A stretch of DNA of 64,000 nt. Source: Labia minor (taxonomy: Eukaryota > Arthropoda > Insecta > Dermaptera > Spongiphoridae). The stretch spans positions 43,191,296 through 43,255,295 of the forward strand of contig OY720346.1 in the NCBI GenBank assembly GCA_963082975.1. Direction: 5' to 3'. The position numbers were made by a program, and so were the translations under genes. The number at the start of each line of letters is the position of its first letter. Position 1 is the stretch's first letter. Positions 3,697-60,067 of this stretch are shown here, piece after piece. The notes beneath the pieces were generated by a model that saw only the letters and a program-made list of their open reading frames with translations, was not told where the DNA came from and did not search any database.

Positions 3697-4926
3697 TACC
3701 GACCGACGATAGTAAGGGAGGTATTGTTTTCACATCAAATTTCACATGTGGAGATTTTTACATATCTCCACGAATTCTGCATTTTGTTAACAGAATAAAT
3801 TAATAAGTTGACCTGTGCCAGGTCCGAACCGACCGACGGTTTGAAGTAAATTAATTTCCAACTACAGGAACAATTTCAAATAATTTTAATATATCTATTA
3901 ATGTAATAAAAAACAGACATGGATACATAAATAATAAATATAAACATTTTTAATTTTATTTTATTTATAATATATATGCAAGACCAGGCTGTGACGTCAT
4001 GAATGGCTGGATGACGTCATATAATTTTAAATCAAGAAAAAACTAATAAATATGATTTTCCCGAGGATAAAACCAATACAAAGTGCATGATTTGTGGTGA
4101 TATATAAAAAAATCTCCTTTGGTGTGAAAATAACCCTTCCCTTCCTATCGTCGATTGCTAATACTACCACTTCCGGTTTCCGGATTTGCACCAAAAGTTG
4201 ATCAATTCATCCCACTGATGCATTATGTAAATATACCAAATTTCATCAAAATCGGTTTAGCCGTTCAGGCTGTACACATCTATACGGACGGACGGACGGA
4301 CAGACATCATGCTAAAAATACTTTTTTCTGTTAAGAAAATGCATGATTCGTGGAGATATGTACCTAAAAATATCCATAGGTGAAATTTGGTGTGAAAACA
4401 ATACCTCCCTTACTATCGTCGGTCGGTAAAAAAGTATTTTTAGCATGATGTCTGTCCGTCCGTCTGTGTGTCCGTATAGATGTGTACAGCTTGAATGGCT
4501 CAACGGATTTTGATAAAATTTGATATATTTACTTAATGCATCAGTATGATGAATTGATCAACTTTTGATGTATATCCGGAAACAGGAAGTGGTGGTATTA
4601 CCGATCGACGATAGGAAGGGAAGGGTTATTTTCACTTCAAATTTGCATGACGAGATTTTTTACATATCTCCACGAATCATGCACTTTGTTTTGTTTTTTC
4701 TTAATTTAAAATTATATGACGTCACCCAGACATTCATGACGTCACAGCCAGCTCCTACTTATATATTAAAAATAAAATAAAATTAAAAATATTTATGTTA
4801 TATCCATATCTGTTTCTTATTGCATTAATAGATACATTTAAATTATTTGAAATTGTTTCTGTAGCTGGAAATTAATTTATTTCAAACCGTAGGTCGGTTC
4901 TGTGTCTGGCCACAGATCAACTTATT
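3697..4926 (+). mobile_element. Family A copy A3, split by copy A4
   Basis: The left part (about 3697-3801) is the 5' block starting ACCGACCGACGATAG and running to GTTAACAGAA. The right part (about 4431-4926) resumes at AAGTATTTTTAGCATG and continues through the GTCC microsatellite, the second block, both TGACGTCA sites and the 3' end. Intact copies such as A6 have these two parts directly joined by a short A-run (CAGAAAAAAGTATT). The sequence between them is a complete inverted A copy, so A3 is the older host. Confidence 0.85.
3802..4430 (-). mobile_element. Family A copy A4, nested inside A3
   Basis: A complete inverted A element: AATAAGTTGACCTG at its 3' terminus on the left, GTCGGTCGGTAAA at its 5' terminus on the right. 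It lies in the A-run of A3 (a T-run on the other strand) with no clear target duplication. Because host and insert are the same family in opposite directions, the region folds into a long inverted repeat. Confidence 0.85.
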
Positions 4927-10438: not shown

Positions 10439-11358
10439 TAAGCGGTCGCCAAACTTTTTGACCTCACGCACCAGTTAATTCATAATTTAAATCCTGCGGA
10501 CCACTAATAAGATTTTTTAAGTGTTAAATATATTTATAAATAATAAGTTGACCTGTGGCCAGGTCCGAACCGACCGACAGTTTGAAATAAATTAATTTCC
10601 AGCTACAGAAACAATTTCAAATAATTTTAATATATCTATTAATGTAATAAAAAACAGATATGGATATAACATAAATATTTTTAATTTTATTTTATTTATA
10701 ATATATATGTAAGACCAGGCTGTGACGTCATGAATGGCTGGATGACGTCATATGATTTTAAATTAAGAAAAAAACTAATAAAAATGATTTTTCTCGAGAA
10801 TAAAACCAATACAAAGTGCATGATTCGTGTTGATATGTAAAAAATCTCCTTATGTGAAATTTGGTGCGAAAATAACCCTTCCCTTCCTATCGTTGATCGC
10901 TAATACTACCACTTCCGGTTTCCGGATTTGCACCAAAAGATGATCAATTCATCCCACTGATGCATTAAGTAAATATACCAAATTTCATCAAAATCCGTTG
11001 AGCCGTTCAGGCTGTACACATCTATACGGACGGACGGACAGACATCGTGCTAAAAATACTTTTTACCGACCGACGATAGTTAGGGAGGTATTGTTTCTGT
11101 TAAGAAAATGCATGATTCGTGGAGATATGTAAAAATCTCCACATGTGAAATTTGGTGTGAAAACATACCTCCCTTACTATCGTCGGTCGTTAAAAATTGT
11201 GATCAAGGAACACATAAACATTGAGTTTTTATAACTTATCACGTATTGTTATGAAAATTGAATCAAGTTTTAATGCATCTTAAAAGATAACTTAACATGA
11301 TGAGTAAGTATATTCCACATTTTTCTGCGGACCAGCGAACTTTTCTCGCTGACCACTA
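10439..11358. mobile_element. hAT-like relic, split by family A copy A5
   Basis: The left piece (GCGGTCGCCAAACTTTTTGA) and right piece (CTGCGGACCAGCG then CGCTGACCACTA) look like mutated hAT ends of the CAGTGGTC...GACCACTG class. Both sides also contain GCGGACCA blocks in opposite orientation (GCGGACCACTAATAAG on the left, CTGCGGACCAGC on the right). A5 fills most of the interior. No clear 8-bp target duplication remains, so this is an old insertion with approximate borders. Confidence 0.5.
10542..11195 (-). mobile_element. Family A copy A5, with an inverted 5'-end insert
   Basis: A near-complete inverted A element, from AATAAGTTGACCTGTGGCCA to CGTCGGTCGTTAAAA, with both TGACGTCA sites at about 10723-10751. 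At about 11062-11097, between CTAAAAATACTTTTT and CTGTTAAGAAAATGC, it carries some 36 bases of the element's own 5' end (ACCGACCGACGATAGTTAGG and following) in the opposite orientation. It lies inside a hAT-like relic. Confidence 0.85.
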
Positions 11359-19654: not shown

Positions 19655-20319
19655 TCTATCTAATCTTATTATGCTAGCTAAAATTGTATATATATATATA
19701 TATATATTTGTATTTGGAATATATTAAATCGCTCCAAGGATTTTTAACATGAATTTACACGATAGATAATTTTTATAAAAAAAATTGATCTGTATTGGTT
19801 TCGGGGAAAATCTTCATTAGATTTTTCTTAATTAACATTTATATGACGTCAGCAACTACATCAGCCAACCCTTGCTTATATACAAAATATATTATAAATA
19901 AAATAAAATTAAAAATATTTATGTTATATCCATATCTATTTTTTATTGCATTAAAACATTCAATTAAATTATTTGAAATGGTTTTAGAACGTTTATTAGT
20001 GTTTTCTTAATTTAAAATAGGAAATTTAAATGACGTCATCAACTTCGTCAGACAGACCTTCCGTAAATACAAAATATTATAAATATAAATAAATCAAATT
20101 ACGAAAATATATATTATTTTATATGAACAGACCAACTTTCTGTCTTTCATTGCATGAATACATACGTTTAAGGAGTATATGTTTTATTAGTCATTTGTGT
20201 TCTTTTAAATTATTTGAACGGCGGTTCGGTAAACCAGGTATTAATATTAGCAGCCAAACCCGATAATAAGGAATAATTTTTTTTAATGACCGAGCGGCGG
20301 CTCGATGAACCAGGTACTA
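19655..20319 (+). mobile_element. Helitron-like family B, copy B1
   Basis: Family B begins around TCTTATCTTATTATGCTAGC and AAAATTGTATATAT, and ends with a GC-rich hairpin (here GAGC-GGCG-GCTC) about 15 bases before GGTACTA. B1 keeps both ends and two TGACGTCA sites (about 19843 and 20030). It carries an extra, related end-like block at 20219-20275 (GGCGGTTCGGTAAACCAGG then TATTAATATTAGCAGCC). Its middle (TATAAATAAAATAAAATTAA, then TTATGTTATATCCATATCTA) is shared with family A. No coding capacity. Confidence 0.75.
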
Positions 20320-28120: not shown

Positions 28121-28783
28121 TTTTTACCGACCGACGATAGTAAGGGAGGTATTGTTTTCACACCAAATTTCACATGTGGAGATTTTTACATATCTCCACG
28201 AATCATGCATTTTCTAAACAGAAAAAAGTATTTTTAGCATGATGTCTGTCCGTCTGTCCGTCCGTCCGTCCGTCCGTCCGTCTGTCCGTCCGTCTGTCCG
28301 TCCGTATAGATGTGTACAGCCTGAACGGCTCAACCGATTTTGATGAAATTTGGTATATTTACTTACTGCATCAGTGGGATGAATTGATCAACTTTTGGTG
28401 CAATTCCGGAAACCGGAAGTGGTAGTATTAGCGATCGACGATAGGAAGGAAAGGGTTATTTTCACACCAAAGGAGATTTTTTTATATATCACCACGAATC
28501 ATGCATTTTGTATTGGTTTTATCCTCGAGAAAAATCATCTTTATTAGTTTTTTCTTAATTTAAAATTATATGACGTCATCCAGCCAGTCATGACGTCACA
28601 GCCTGGTCTTGCATATATATATATTATAAATAAAATAAAATTAAAAATATTTATGTTATATCCATATCTGTTTTTTATTACATTAATAGATATATTAAAA
28701 TTATTTGAAATTGTTTCTGTAGCTGGAAATTAATTTACTTCAAATCGTCGGTCGGTTCGGACCTGGCCACAGGTCAACTTATT
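28121..28783 (+). mobile_element. Family A copy A6, near-complete reference copy
   Basis: The cleanest A copy: ACCGACCGACGATAGTAAGG at 28126, a long GTCC/GTCT microsatellite at 28245-28308, CGGCTCAACCGATTTTGATG, the second 5'-like block (GCGATCGACGATAGGAAGG at 28431), two TGACGTCA palindromes at about 28571 and 28590, and the 3' end AAATCGTCGGTCGGTTCGG, hairpin ACCTG-GCCA-CAGGT, CAACTTATT. It lies in a T-run of a mariner (CTCCAATTTT / TTTATTTC), consistent with the TT target described for Helentrons. No coding capacity. Confidence 0.9.
28245..28308 (+). repeat. GTCC/GTCT microsatellite within A6
   Basis: About 15 tetranucleotide units of GTCC and GTCT, expanded relative to the 3-6 units in other A copies. 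The same microsatellite type marks DINE-1-like elements in flies. Confidence 0.9.
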
Positions 28784-32250: not shown

Positions 32251-33489
32251 AACACTAAAACTGTTAAAAAAATAAGAGGCTCAAATTTTGCAAGCGAATT
32301 AAAAAAGGACATTCATCGATTAAGAGAATGTTACACAGAAAAAGTATTCGATAAAGCTTCAAAATTATTTCTAGAAAAGTGGCAAAAGAAGAATGATAAT
32401 GAAATTAATAAATTTGTAAATTACTTTTATTCGGAATACCTTCAGCAAAATAAATACCGGTTTGAAGGTGCTACAAATGGATATCCAAGTACAAATAACG
32501 GCTTAGAAGCTACAAATTCAGTTATTAAACGGGAGCATACACTAAGAGAAAGATTACTCATTACACAATTTCTAAATGCTTTAAATAATCTTCTTTTGAA
32601 ATGGACCGAAGAAAGAAATCCTAGTTGTCCCAATTATAAATGTTTTGCATTAAAACCAGCTATAAAATTAAAACTATGTGCAGATGCATTTCACTGGGCA
32701 TTATCAAATAAAACTGTAATAAAAAAATCTAATAAATATTTTGTATGTTCCTCACAATCACATTTTCAAAAAGTAACTTCTGAATTAATCTCGCAATATC
32801 TTATCTTCTTATGCTAGCTAAAATTGTTTGTAGGGCCATGGGTTCTCAAAAACCGTTCTAACGATTTTTTTGAAATTCACACTAGATATAGTATTTATAA
32901 AAAAAAATTGAGTTTTATTGATCACATCTCAGAAAAAATACATCTTCATTAGTTTTTTCTTAATTTAAATGTATATATGGATGACGTCACAAATGACATC
33001 CATATTGAAATTTGACTCCCGCCTTTTATTAAAGGATATTGTATTAATATTTTTTTTTTATTTTTAAAATATTTTAAAAAATTTTATTTAATTTCGAAAT
33101 AAAATTAATAATATATATTTTAATAATATTTTATAATTATAAATTACGATATATATTTATCATTCTTCCAATAAAAAAAAATATTCATGCACTTAGAAAC
33201 ATACCTAATAATACATATTTATGTATTATTGAGGACCCATCCATTCATTTTAATCAGATTGATGCAATGATGCAACATTTAATAATTGTAATAAAGAATT
33301 AAAGAATTGTATATCAGCTCGGTGTCTCAAGTATTAATATTACCAGCCAAACTCAATAATAATGAATTTTTTTTTTAACTTAATTACCGAGCCGAGGCTC
33401 GGGGTCCCGGTACTAATTCATTAAATGAAAAGTGGGAGTCATTTAAGGAATATGAAAAATTTAATTTTGGAGGTCTATTTCGATTATAA
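32251..33489 (+). pseudogene. MULE transposase C-terminal part, interrupted by B2
   Basis: The frame from 32251 to 32798 is open for about 182 codons. Key segments are FYSEYLQQNKYRFEGA, then TNNGLEATNSVIKREHTLRE (the MULE TNN-x-LE-x-x-N signature) followed by RLLITQFLNAL, and a Y-F-V-C-S-S start of a SWIM-like zinc finger region. At 32799 Helitron-like B2 begins. After it, at 33417-33489, the same frame resumes as YSLNEKWESFKEYEKFNFGG and ends in TAA. The DDE catalytic core expected upstream is not visible, so this is a 5'-truncated fossil. MULE transposases bind and cut their own long inverted ends; this copy cannot. Confidence 0.85.
32799..33416 (+). mobile_element. Helitron-like family B, copy B2, exact borders
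   Basis: Starts TCTTATCTTCTTATGCTAGC at 32799 and ends GGTACTAA at 33416, with the hairpin GAGCC-GA-GGCTC at 33390-33401. It lies between A and T in the MULE transposase frame without target duplication. Removing these 618 bases restores TAT (Tyr) and the downstream frame. The TC start, hairpin, CTRR-type end (CTAA) and A/T target are the defining Helitron features. The borders could slide by one base because the flanks are similar. It keeps one TGACGTCA (about 32982). No coding capacity. Confidence 0.88.
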
Positions 33490-35199: not shown

Positions 35200-35826
35200 A
35201 ATAACTTGACCTGTGGCCAGGCACAGAACCGACTGACGGTTTGAAATAAATTAATTTCCAACTACAGAAACAATTTCAAATAATTTAAATGTATCTATTA
35301 ATGTAATAAAAAACAGATATGGATATAACAAAAATATTTTTAATTTTATTTTATTTATAATATATATGTAAGACCAGGCTGTGACGTCATGGATGACGTC
35401 ATATAATTTTAAATCAAGAAAAAACTAATAAATATGATTTTTCTTGAGGATAAAGCCAATACAAAGTGCATGATTGGTGGAGATATATAAAAAAATCTCC
35501 TCATGTGAGATTTGGTGTGAAAATAACCCTTCCCTTCCTATCGTCGATCGCTAATACTACCACTTCCGGTTTCCGGATATACACCAAAATTTGATCAATT
35601 CATCCTACTGATCCATTAAGTAAATATACCAAATTTTATCAAAATTCGTTAGCCATTCAATCTGTACACCTCTATATGGACACACAACGGACGGACGGAC
35701 GGACAGACGGACAGACATCATGCTAAAGATACTTTTTCAGTTAACAAAATGCTAAGATATGTAAAAATCTCCAGATGTGAAATTTGGTGTGAAAACAGTA
35801 CCTTTCCTTCCTATCGTCGGGCGAGA
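35200..35826 (-). mobile_element. Family A copy A7
   Basis: Inverted A element from TAACTTGACCTGTGGCCAGG to CCTATCGTCGGGCGAG. The two TGACGTCA sites (about 35382 and 35394) are only a few bases apart because the spacer present in other copies is shortened. The 5' end is slightly altered. Confidence 0.85.
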
Positions 35827-44862: not shown

Positions 44863-46879
44863 GGGTAAGGGGTTGCTCAAGTCGTACCCTTTAAGAAAAA
44901 AATCGTATAGAACCTAGGATTTATCTAATAAATAAAAATGAAATGTGTTGTTCACAACATGTACTAATATTATAGTTATTTATTATAGCGAAAATATAAA
45001 ATTTATATGCTTTCACGTAAAATAAACTAAATTTTAAAATACTTACATCGGTACGACTAAAGAAACCGGTTTCCTAAGTCGTATCACCTATAGCCTAAGT
45101 CGTACCTAAAGATTAAATTCAGCAACAAAATTAATAAAAATTTATTTTTTATTAATCTGTTTACATGATACATAATCAATCAGATAAATCAGGTTTGCAA
45201 ACATCACTTATATATTTTTACCGACCGACGATAGTAAGGGAGGTATTGTTTTGACACCAAATTTCACATGTGGAGATTTTTACATATTACATATTTACAC
45301 GAATGCATTTTCTTAACAGAAAAAAGTATTTTTAGCATGATGTCTGTCCGTCCGTCCGTCCGTCCGTCTGTCCGAATAGATGTGTACAGCCTGAACGGCT
45401 CAACCGATTTTGATGAAATTTGGTATATTTACTTAATGCATCAGTGGGATGAATTGATCAACTTTTGGTGCAAATCCGGAAACCGGAAGTGGTAGTATTA
45501 CCGATCAACGATAGGAAGGGAAGGGTTATTTTCACACCAAATTTCACATGAGGAGATTTTTTACATATCACCACGAATCATGCACTTGGTATTGGTTTTA
45601 TCCTCGAGAAAAATCATCTTTATTAGTTTTTTCTTAATTTAAAATTATATGACGTCACCCAGCCCTTCATGACGTCACAGCCTCGGGTAACGCCGGGCAA
45701 CGCCGGCTACTTCAGCTATATATTATAAATAAAATAAAATTAAAAATATTTATGTTCTATCCATATCTGTTTTTTCTTACATTAATAGATATATTAAAAT
45801 TATTTGAAATTGTTCCTGTAGCTGGAAATTAATTTATTTCAAACCGTCGGTCGGTTCGGGCCTGGCCACAGGTCAACTTATTTTGTCCTATTATCAACTC
45901 CAGTGCATAAATCGTGAGCCCTTAATTTGCATTTCAAGCAACTAATCATGCTTTCCTCTCCATCTTCTTAAAACAAAACCAATTATTTTTCTTCTTTTTA
46001 GTTTTTAATGCCATTTCTTTTTTATTAATTTTTGCATTTCTTTTATTTGTTGCAATTCTTACATTTGCTTTATTCTGTGTTGAAGTTATTTCGATTGGCG
46101 AGGTAGAGCATCGACTGTTTCATTTTATTATTGGGATAGGAGCTAAATTATTTAAATGAATTTCTATTTGATTTATAGACGCTTCCGTTTCTATTTCAAG
46201 AATTTCTTTATTTTCCTGTGTAGCCACTGTAGAAAGATTTTCTTGATTATTGAAGTAAAAACGAGGGAGTTCGTAAAGAGTTTGCAATCACAGGTGTAGA
46301 AGCACAAAAATCATCATCAAATGCATACTTGTGCCATGCCAAATACCAGTAGTTTAAAACCATTCAAAGCAATATCCATCCTGTTGCGACATAATTATGG
46401 CTAAAAAATAAAAAATGAAAGCAAATTCAGTTGAGAACAGGTTAAAAAATAATTAATTTCTTAATTCATACCAGTAAGATTTAGGAATATCATATGGGTA
46501 CGACTTGAGGCACAGTACAAGTTAGCATTAAAAATAAGCATAACCAAACATTGAATAAAATCAATTCAATCTCGTTTCGGCTAAACTATTAAATATGTTC
46601 TTCTGAATTTATATTTAAGAAGTAAAATCATTTTAGGAATAATTAACCTGCAATATTAACTTCGAAAAATATACAGAAAATTGTAAGAAAAATGAAATGA
46701 ACTTACTTAATGAGAAAATTTATAACAAACCACTTTTAATAAAATAAAATAACACCTAAAATATGGGGTTGACTTATATACATATATTCCATTTTGTTGT
46801 ATGAGCGATTGTCTGCACAGTTCGTTCAAAATTCAAGAGGTACGAATTAAGCACTGGTACGACTTGAGCAACCTTACCC
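44863..46879 (-). mobile_element. Pogo-like DNA transposon (2.0 kb), split by A8
   Basis: Ends GGGTAAGGGGTTGCTCAAGT and ACTTGAGCAACCTTACCC are inverted and flanked by TA on both sides. The motif AAGTCGTACC is repeated near both ends. Minus-strand coding remains at 45885-46300 are the transposase tail: an acidic stretch (TQENKEILEIETEASINQ), a lysine-rich stretch (KKEMALKTKKKKNN), and CLKCKLRAHDLCTGV. That C-x-x-C-K-x-x-x-H-x-x-C-x-G ending is the zinc-finger-like tail known from many insect pogo-type transposases. The frames are broken and the DDE core is absent, so it is dead. Confidence 0.8.
45215..45883 (+). mobile_element. Family A copy A8 with GC-rich internal block
   Basis: A complete A element in a T-run (TATATTTTTACCGACC), ending GGCCACAGGTCAACTTATT. 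Both TGACGTCA sites are present (about 45650 and 45670). Where other copies read CAGCCTGGTCTTACATATA, A8 has a GC-rich block (GGGTAACGCCGGGCAACGCC then GGCTACTTCAGCTA) at about 45685-45718 that looks like the 3' terminus of a different or older Helitron. Confidence 0.88.
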
Positions 46880-46936: not shown

Positions 46937-47444
46937 GTAGAAGTAGTGCAAAGCAATCTCCAGGTTTTGCTAGCCTTTCCTGGTGAGTTGACATTCACAA
47001 CCCTGATTATATCTTATCTTATTATGCTAGCTAAAATTGTATATATCTATCTATCTATCTATTTATCTATATTGGTTCTCAAAAACCGCTCTAACGATTT
47101 TTTTCAAATTCACACTAGATATAGTATTTATAAAGAAAAATTAAGTTTTATTGATGATATCTCTTGAAACATTCAGCTTCATTATTAATTTCTTAATTGA
47201 AAATTATATATGGAAAACGTCAAAATTGGCATCCATTTTTATTTGTATTAATATTTTTTTTTATTTAAAATATTTTAAAATTTATTATTTAATTTCGAAA
47301 TAAAATTAAAAATATTTATTTTTAATAAAATATATATAGATATTTATTAATCTCTCTCAAAAAAAAAAAATAAATAAAAAACATCAAATACTGCTAAGAC
47401 AGTAAAAAAATGACAATTTTTTATCTAAATATATATAGTACAGA

Positions 47445-47510
47445 GGCTAGAGTGATGTTTTAACGAGTGGATTTCGTCGGTTCGAAACTCGCCGGGTGAA
47501 TCGTTATTTA
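47445..47510 (+). other. tRNA-like sequence inside B3
   Basis: GGCTAGAGTGATG resembles an A box, and GTCGGTTCGAAACTCGCCG contains a consensus-like B box (GGTTCGAAACT). Spacing is about 40 bases. No convincing cloverleaf; probably a SINE or tRNA relic captured by the B copy. Confidence 0.35.
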
Positions 47511-47897
47511 AAAATGAAAATAATGATTTTGTTATTTTTTTTTTCTTTTTATCTATTGTTTACTTTTTAATAAATTACTATTTTATATTTATTTATTCAT
47601 TGTTCTTTTATTAATTAAGTTTTAGATAGTTTTATAATTTTTAATATTTTTTCAATAAAATATTATTTAATATATTTATTAATATTATTTTATTTATTAT
47701 TATTGAGTACCCGAAGTTCCATTCATTTTAATCAGATTGATGCAATGATGCAACAGTTAATAATTGTAATATTGTAATAAATTTCTATCTTGAAAATTGT
47801 TACATATTATTCAGGATATTTTAAAAACAATTTCTTTCTTTAATTAATTTTCATTTTTTCTATAAGTCAGATATATTTCCAAATATTAAATAATTTT

Positions 47898-48505
47898 TGA
47901 AGTGAAAACTTCTTTAGCGGCGTTGAGCACTTTTGCGGGATGGGGAAAAAGTATAGAACTCGCGTGATCGTGACCAACACCATGAAGCTAGCACATTACG
48001 TCTGCTTTCAAATTTCTTATAACAGAGCGCGAAATTTGAATTGTCATTAGAACTGTTTTATAAATTATCTCTAACATATAAATATATATTTATTATGTAA
48101 AGTTCATTTCATATATACATATATAATCAAAATTATACGAAATGAACTTCACATAATAAATATATATTTTATGTTAGAGATAAGAATTATAAAACAGTTC
48201 GTATTGCAATATTTTAAACAAAGTTGTGTATTTATATATATATAAATATAAGTTACAAATTTGTTTAAAATATATGTTTAAAATAATATATAAGTTATAT
48301 ATATATACATGCATATGAAATTCATCTTTCTCGTGAAATAGCGCGAATTTCGTCTGTTTTAAAATTTCTTACGCAGAAGTTTTCACTTCTGTCGGCCAGT
48401 CCCACGACTGCCAATTTTGCTTTTTTAATTCCGAAAAGCTGCAAAGCACGTTTTTTTTCTTTAGTTTGTTTTATAACCACTTGGGGCGCTAAACAGTTTT
48501 TCAAA
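47898..48505. mobile_element. Unclassified insert with long inverted repeat, inside B3
   Basis: The core 48048-48200 is an imperfect palindrome: GAACTGTTTTATAAATTATC TCTAAC... on the left and GTTAGAGATAAG then AATTATAAAACAGTTC on the right, with arms of about 70 bases. It is flanked by GC-richer segments. GAAGTGAAAACTTCT at 47898 recurs inverted at about 48374-48390, and GTCTGCTTTCAAATTTCTTA recurs in direct form (with changes) at about 48352. This layout suggests a foldback or MITE-type transposon. The short minus-strand frame at 48322-48504 is not recognised. Confidence 0.55.
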
Positions 48506-48779
48506 AAAACACTATAGAAAAAAAATATATGTACCTATATATTATATATTTATGTATTATTGAGGAGCACAAGTTCATTAATTTTAATCAGATTGATGCA
48601 AATGTGTAACATTTAATAATTGTAATAAATAATTAAAGAATTGTGTATCAATATTTTTTAAAGGGTAGAGCGAGAGCTCGGTGTCCCAGGTATTAATATT
48701 ACCAGCCAAATCCAATAATAATGAATCATTTTTTTTAACTTAAGTACCGAGCCGAGGCTCGGGGTCCCGGTACTATATA

Positions 48780-58972: not shown

Positions 58973-60067
58973 CAGTGGTACCTCGACATACGAGCTTAAT
59001 TCGTTCCAAGACCTTGCTCGTATCTCAAATTGTTCGTATCTCAAAGCACTTCGCGCCATTAAAACTAATAGAAAAGCTTTTAATCCGTTCCAGTCCCCAA
59101 AAATCACCTTAGTTTTGTTTTTTGTATGCTATTTTGAATCAAACAAATGTCTTTACGAGAAGGAACATTTATTTAAAAACAACAAAAATAATGGGAACAT
59201 TTAAATAAATAAAAATAAGAAGAATTAAAAAAAAACTTAAATATCATCGCTTGTCTTTGCTTTTTTCGCCTCCCCTTGCTCATCTTGTTCTGCAAAGCGT
59301 TTTATAAAATTGTCTAAGGAAGTTTGTTTTTTCCGCCCCTTCAGGGTATTGCGAAAATGATTGAGACAGGTTTCGTTAAATAATTCCGAAGCCCGACCAG
59401 TTGCAACCTTTTCGGGGTGGTTTTTATCTACAAATTCAACAATTTTCTCCCACATTCCTAGGATCTCTTTAATTTCTTTTGAAGAGATAACATTTTCTGT
59501 TTCTGGCGCCTCTTCAGAAACTGTGTTTTCTTGGGTCACAACATCATTCTGTGTTTGTAGGTTTTGTAACTCTTCAGTTGTAAGCTCCTCAAAATGTTGC
59601 TCGACAAGTTAGTTTACATCATTTTCATCTACTTCTAGACCCAAAGATTTTCCCAAAGAAACAATCTCTTCTATTTCTGACACTTGAGATTCAGATTCTG
59701 CAATGATCCTTTCAGTTACAGCGTCAGGCCATAGCTTTTTCCATGCAGAAATTAATGTTCTTTTTGTGACACCCAGCCAGGCCTGATCAATAATTCTTAG
59801 ACATGTCACTATGTTAAAATGGTCTTTCCAAAACTCTCGAAGGGTCAGGTTTGTACTATCCGTCACTTCAAATCATTTTCGGAACATATGCTTTATGTAC
59901 AGCTTCTTAAAATTAGAAATGCGGGGGCAAATTGGTGCCGTGTGCATCGTCACGGGGTGCTCGTATCTCAAATCTTGCTCGTATCTCAAAGCAAAATATC
60001 TGTCGGTTGGCGGCTCGTATCTCAAAACACTCGTATGTTGGGGCACTCGTATGTCGAGGTACCACTG
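58973..60067 (-). mobile_element. Tigger/pogo transposon (1.1 kb) with both ends and TA duplication
   Basis: Ends CAGTGGTACCTCGACATACG and CGTATGTCGAGGTACCACTG are a perfect 20-base inverted pair, flanked by TA (58971-58972 and 60068-60069). CTCGTATCTCAAA is repeated subterminally on the right, and the left has CTCGTATCTCAAATTG and TCGTATCTCAAAGC. The minus strand keeps the C-terminal third of the transposase. The N-terminal DNA-binding and DDE domains are lost by internal deletion, since a full Tigger is about 2.4 kb. Confidence 0.95.
59237..59866 (-). pseudogene. Tigger transposase C-terminal fragment, one in-frame stop
   Basis: A single minus-strand frame encodes LTLREFWKDHFNIVTCLRII, DQAWLGVTKRTLISAWKKLW, then EIEEIVSLGKSLGLEVDEND and VN, an in-frame TAA at about 59608, and then LVEQHFEELTTEELQ and the acidic/lysine-rich tail ending KAKTSDDI. 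This is the conserved C-terminus of Tigger-type (CENP-B-related) transposases. No frameshift was seen, only the stop. In the intact family the protein cuts and re-inserts the element at TA; this copy has lost the catalytic part. Confidence 0.92.

Follow-up and report, generated by a model that had tools for sequence, protein, structure and literature searches.

A Helitron-like family in the insect Labia minor that ends in GGTAC and shares its ends with a Helraiser-like element

CTRR is a stated hallmark of the Helitron1 3′ end, and A^T (the caret marks a border or insertion point) is the known Helitron choice of target. Helraiser (Helibat1), from bats, resembles the system described here in its RepHel protein over about 1000 residues. 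Like our family, Helraiser has a 5′ TC, a hairpin 11 nt from its 3′ end, an A^T target and precise head-to-tail joins (PMC4778049, in excerpt). Helraiser ends in CTAG, whereas the present family ends in GGTAC, and the autonomous copies seen add an upstream hairpin module. Helitron2/Helentron and HINE/DINE-1 elements share with our family the lack of a target duplication and a 3′ stem-loop, and non-CTRR ends are known among them; however, their targets are TT, T-rich or TNAT rather than A^T, and they bear asymmetric or subterminal inverted repeats (PMC5148889 and PMC4067079, in excerpt). No inverted repeat linking the two termini of our element is among the 25 listed of the 54 found in 32750-33450. 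The Hel-2 and Hel1 elements of Lepidoptera and other insects are also short and non-coding with a 3′ hairpin, and Hel-2 has an AT flank, but both end in CTRR (PMC4344730 and PMC6544945, in excerpts).

We analysed a stretch of 64,000 nucleotides (the window; 26.6% G+C) of the Labia minor genome (604 Mb in 71 contigs), in which an element that we call B2 breaks a MULE-like transposase frame. Judged from sequence comparison, B2 is very probably non-autonomous, derived by deletion from a 9.26-kb Helraiser-like Helitron that the genome also contains and moved in trans by the RepHel of that element.

B2 and its copies

The left part of the MULE-like frame is open as far as CTCGCAATA, after which the sequence runs TCTTATCTTCTTATGCTAGC...GGTCCCGGTAC and continues with TAATTCATTAAATGAAAAG. 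A reading of the sequence alone had proposed that foreign DNA enters the frame at 32799 (TCTTATC) and that the frame resumes beyond it, and this proved correct. The MULE label is taken from that sequence-only reading, because the left part of the frame has no match in Pfam. The features of the locus are as follows.

32251 to 32798, plus strand: left part of the MULE-like transposase frame (open frame; 45 genome matches to 32300-32798).
32799 to 33413 (or equally 32800-33414), plus strand: B2, a 615-bp non-autonomous Helitron-like element, TC...GGTAC (shared ends of 40 copies; empty sites).
32799 to 32827, plus strand: 5′ terminus of B2, TCTTATCTTCTTATGCTAGCTAAAATTGT, almost matching that of the autonomous element (comparison with that element and with copies).
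33316 to 33333, plus strand: decayed internal copy of the 3′ module, AGCTCGGTGTCTCAAGTA (45 aligned 3′ ends).
33387 to 33402, plus strand: terminal hairpin CCGAGCC-GA-GGCTCGG, 11 nt before the end of B2 (sequence and DNA fold).
33403 to 33413, plus strand: GGTCCCGGTAC, the true 3′ end of B2 (conserved to C then T, variable after).
33414 to 33416, plus strand: TAA, flanking MULE sequence and not part of B2 (kept in uninterrupted MULE paralogues).
33414 to 33489, plus strand: right part of the MULE-like frame to its stop (in frame once 615 bases are removed).

B2 belongs to an abundant family. A genome search with 32799-33416 gave 4851 first-look candidates, 40 of which were scored, fetched and compared; all 40 are at least 91.6% identical to the query. 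Exact matches to the 21-base 3′ end number 4437 in the genome, against none for the same string written backwards, so that the repetition far exceeds what chance would give. The sequence shared by the 40 aligned copies extends from A^TCTTATCTT to GGTAC^T, beyond which it is variable.

An autonomous partner and head-to-tail joins

The Pfam family PF14214 has 104 matches across the genome, and several classes of RepHel are present, among them L015–L021 and L011/L013. Copies of the first class have open frames of 1651–1652 amino acids (1537 in one copy), and the six others are at least 99.94% identical to L015 in a comparison of 3558 bases. The L015-class protein matches Helraiser (PDB 7lcc) with an E value of 1.4e-171 across about 1000 residues, and the alignment shows conservation of pHmHill and kYlykYiyK, which we take to be the HUH motif and the YxxxY double-tyrosine motif. 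Pfam gave no Helentron-type endonuclease domain in the 1186 residues of L015 that were scanned, which lie ahead of its C-terminal part; nor did the window frame at 59240-59608 match any Pfam family.

One autonomous element, on contig C10, could be delimited at both ends, and is the single copy on which the autonomous 5′ end was read. It extends from 14921034 to 14930295 (9262 bases), from A^TCTTATCTTATTATGCTAGC to GGTAC^T, and its last 100 bp or so are 93% identical to those of B2. Among seven RepHel copies for which the predicted 3′ stretch was fetched, four (L094, L095, L099 and L101) have a B2-like 3′ end; none was found in the stretches of L097, L098 and L100, whose positions were set by prediction and which perhaps missed the end. 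The RepHel copy on C9 contains a 523-base duplication that shifts its end. The Helitron-like nature of B2, as first proposed, thus gains strength from a RepHel-coding element with matching ends, and that the family works like a Helitron is strongly supported.

Copies of the family are also joined to one another. The zero-spacer junction GGTCCCGGTACTCTTATCTT, in which GGTCCCGGTAC is followed directly by TCTTATCTT (GGTAC^TCTTATC), occurs exactly 127 times in the genome and not at all in the backward control. This is the join expected of a circle or of read-through; the 127 junctions, observed in genome sequence only, fit rolling-circle transposition. Tandem Helitrons of bat and silkworm have been attributed to bypassed termination (PMC4067079, in excerpt), and Helraiser circles have an equivalent join, with CTAG in the place of GGTAC (PMC4778049, in excerpt). 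The array at L050 contains two joins, one exact and the other missing the C. On C6, an exact join (L103) lies 4.1 kb upstream of the L023 RepHel domain in the same orientation, and the sequence to its right is 93% identical to the first 192 bases of the C10 element; the join stands where the 5′ end of an autonomous C6 copy would be expected, and we take it as that end, position being what links it to the RepHel domain.

Two arrays on different chromosomes (C2:60844360/60845952 and C4:26668167/26669759) have junctions exactly 1592 bases apart. Ordinary duplication may have multiplied part of the 127 junctions.

New copies that inserted at the leading A^T of copies already in place would produce an identical GGTAC^TC join, and the arrays could have been built in this way rather than by read-through or from multimeric circles. 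However, random targeting would yield about 0.06 such events for 4437 copies (assuming 13% AT dinucleotides), against the 127 observed, and we regard serial insertion as a rather unlikely source of the arrays. Because the genome holds more than one RepHel class, B2 could also have been moved by another of them, such as L011/L013; the B ends are, however, carried by the L015 class (the class for which ends were compared), which makes a different mobilising class improbable.

Under the preferred reading, in which a RepHel of the L015 class moved B2, the protein would nick at A^TC and peel off one strand until stopped by the terminal hairpin, and the cut would follow GGTAC, 11 nt downstream. Once joined into a circle (GGTAC^TC), the element would enter between A and T without duplicating the target, and missed termination or multimeric circles would account for head-to-tail arrays. 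We infer both this order of nicking and joining and the identity of the mobilising protein.

Borders, target and empty sites

The flanks place both ends of the element. Two copies (L038 and L050) could not be anchored on the 5′ side, and flank tables use the other 38. The 5′ border reads A^TC in 37 of these, one of which reads TCATATC. Extra TCTTA units stand ahead of the border in 11 of the 38 anchored copies (one unit in five, two in six), and the first unit is preceded by A in 37 of 38. At the other end, 36 of the 40 copies have CT after GGTA and four lack the C, so that T comes next; if the latter are read as GGTA^T, the flanking base is T in 40 of 40. If backgrounds of 0.35 and 0.45 are assumed for A and T, the binomial tails of the A column (37/38) and the T column (40/40) are 3e-16 and 1e-14. 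The base after GGTACT (A in 22 of the 36 copies, T in 12, G and C in one each) resembles the remaining flank. From these two columns and the variable base beyond, we conclude that the element ends in GGTAC and that the T that follows is target. The TC start and the A/T target of the sequence-only reading are supported. The border can slide by one base, and TC...GGTAC at A^T is indistinguishable from C...GGTACT after AT; the first form follows the known Helitron choice.

Copies differ in how many TCTTA units their 5′ terminus has (for example, L002, L007 and L059). As each unit begins with TC after A, alternative nick sites could explain the variation. A TA target duplication was considered and rejected: copy by copy, the TA of the 5′ flank is unmatched by the 3′ flank.

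Uninterrupted paralogues of the broken frame provide an independent view of the junction. Forty of 66 candidates were scored, with 45 matches; 30 loci were then retrieved, including that of the window itself. Of the 29 others, three (L078, L086 and L087) miss the junction and L085 coincides with L084, leaving 25 distinct crossings. Seventeen read CAATATAATTCATTA exactly, that is, CAATA followed by TAATTCATTA; four keep the spacing with substitutions (L063, L068, L072 and L089), and four have small indels (L070, L074, L077 and L080). None of the 25 reads CAATATTCATTA, the empty site that had been predicted from the sequence alone. An intact paralogue reads SQYNSLNEKWESF; removing 615 bases from the window gives SQYNSLNEKW, which matches it, and removing 618 gives SQYSLNEKW. 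The test proposed from the sequence was a sound one, but both numbers are multiples of three, so the frame was blind to the difference.

Other copies have empty sites of their own. L006 and L033 are inserted two bases apart into one repeat family, and window copies of that family that are gapless at the junction restore GGTATATTTACTTAATG, some being gapped further upstream. The flank of L058 recurs nearby in inverted orientation without the element; this empty copy shows a 4-base gap shortly after the junction. There is no target duplication at the empty sites of L001, L006, L033 and L058, as had been claimed for B2, and the empty sites agree with the A/T target. The remaining matches that span a junction were set aside as low-complexity or self-matches, and L048 as a copy whose 5′ end is worn.

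The repeat family (...AAATTTGGTATATTTACTTAATGC...) that is the target of two B copies elsewhere occurs in the window at 295-420, 4176-4584, 10916-11042, 28285-28415, 35569-35692 and 45359-45485. Separately, the MULE copies L086 and L087 (C9, 39.5 Mb) both stop at CAATA, after CTCGCAATA, and then share unrelated DNA that is 99.7% identical between them over its first 344 bases; this break is perhaps another insertion at the same CAATA site, or a shared truncation.

Two other placements of the ends fare poorly. Taken by itself, B2 permits the one-base slide to the T/T target that the sequence-only reading kept as an alternative, and some Helitron2 elements also lack CTRR (PMC5148889, in excerpt). 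However, the base ahead of the first TC is A in 37 of the 38 anchored copies, T is not fixed at the second position beyond the element and the partner matches Helraiser. The flanks refute a T^T target, and a Helentron/Helitron2-type element inserting at T^T is very unlikely. A canonical Helitron of 618 bp ending in CTAA at 33416, as first proposed, is more improbable still and is refuted by the empty sites: CTAA is found in the B2 copy and the frame survives the removal of 618 bases, but what follows GGTACT varies among the 40 copies (CTAA therefore includes flanking DNA), the MULE paralogues retain TAA and the head-to-tail join is GGTAC^TC, so that paralogues and copies agree on 615 bases and on a right border three bases further in. 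The sequence-only reading had named paralogues with another junction and copies with other shared ends as observations that would count against it; at the 3′ side, both were found.

Terminal modules and the place of the family

The proposed GAGCC-GA-GGCTC hairpin is present near the 3′ end of B2, as part of the longer CCGAGCC-GA-GGCTCGG, and the last 33 bases fold as DNA into a 6-bp stem with a 4-base loop. The window holds two further copies of the family.

19659 to 20317, plus strand: B1, a divergent copy ending ...CCAGGTAC^T, with a different but paired hairpin.
47012 to 48773, plus strand: B3, a longer copy with part of the autonomous 5′ region and both 3′ modules, ending GGTAC^T.

A terminal hairpin folds in both B2 and B1; in the last 33 bases of B3, the best DNA fold pairs GTACCG with the final CGGTAC rather than forming the simple terminal hairpin. 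In the autonomous copies seen, a second module about 80 bases before the end consists of CGAGC-AATA-GCTCG followed by GTGTCCCAGGTA, and at the same distance B3 has the hairpin GAGC-GAGA-GCTC, likewise followed by GTGTCCCAGGTA. The 5′ arm of this internal hairpin is present in B3, in B1 and in three aligned autonomous ends, and is absent from the 40 B2-like copies. Since the B2-like subgroup multiplied without that arm, the terminal module would appear to suffice. In L101, ATGTCCCAGGTA follows the internal hairpin and a third hairpin-plus-GGTA module is present; in B1, both modules have the loop GGCG and the tail AACCAGGTA.

The B3 stretch at 47391-47694 is 92% identical to the 5′ region of the autonomous element and includes GGTTCGAAACTCGCC, which we take to resemble a tRNA-type B box.

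The two alike modules of B1 and the three of one autonomous copy hint at repeatable, homogenised units. We tentatively suggest that, in this Helraiser-type lineage, the 3′ end may be recognised as a repeatable module of hairpin plus GGTA or GGTAC, rather than as CTRR, and that tandem modules may serve as alternative terminators that are gained, lost and homogenised within subfamilies.

We rate the B2 family as neither strict canonical Helitron1 nor Helentron. It has the TC 5′ end, the A-T insertion without target duplication, a hairpin (11 nt before the end in B2) within the 10–12 nt of Helitron1 and a RepHel partner with the same ends (both on the C10 copy). Strict membership nevertheless fails because the element ends GGTAC^T, and CTRR can be read in only 12 of the 36 CT-bearing copies; Helentron membership fails on the T^T target. 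We met no GGTAC-ending Helraiser-like lineage in the Helitron literature, consulted partly in excerpts and through searches not aimed at that end, and this is the sole basis on which we call the lineage new.

Even near the best-studied Helitron, the CTRR tetrad seems not to be fixed, to judge from a Helraiser-like RepHel element with a GGTAC end. Programs and readers that rely on CTRR to find Helitrons would be prone to overlook this family, with its more than 4000 exact ends, or to set its borders wrongly; here the misplacement was three bases. Restoring the frame of a broken gene says little about where a border lies if the misplacement is a multiple of three. Ends with one, two and three modules form a natural series that makes the read-through model testable within a genome, and a 3′ end made of repeatable modules, if that is what this is, would let an element shift its end and extend itself stepwise.
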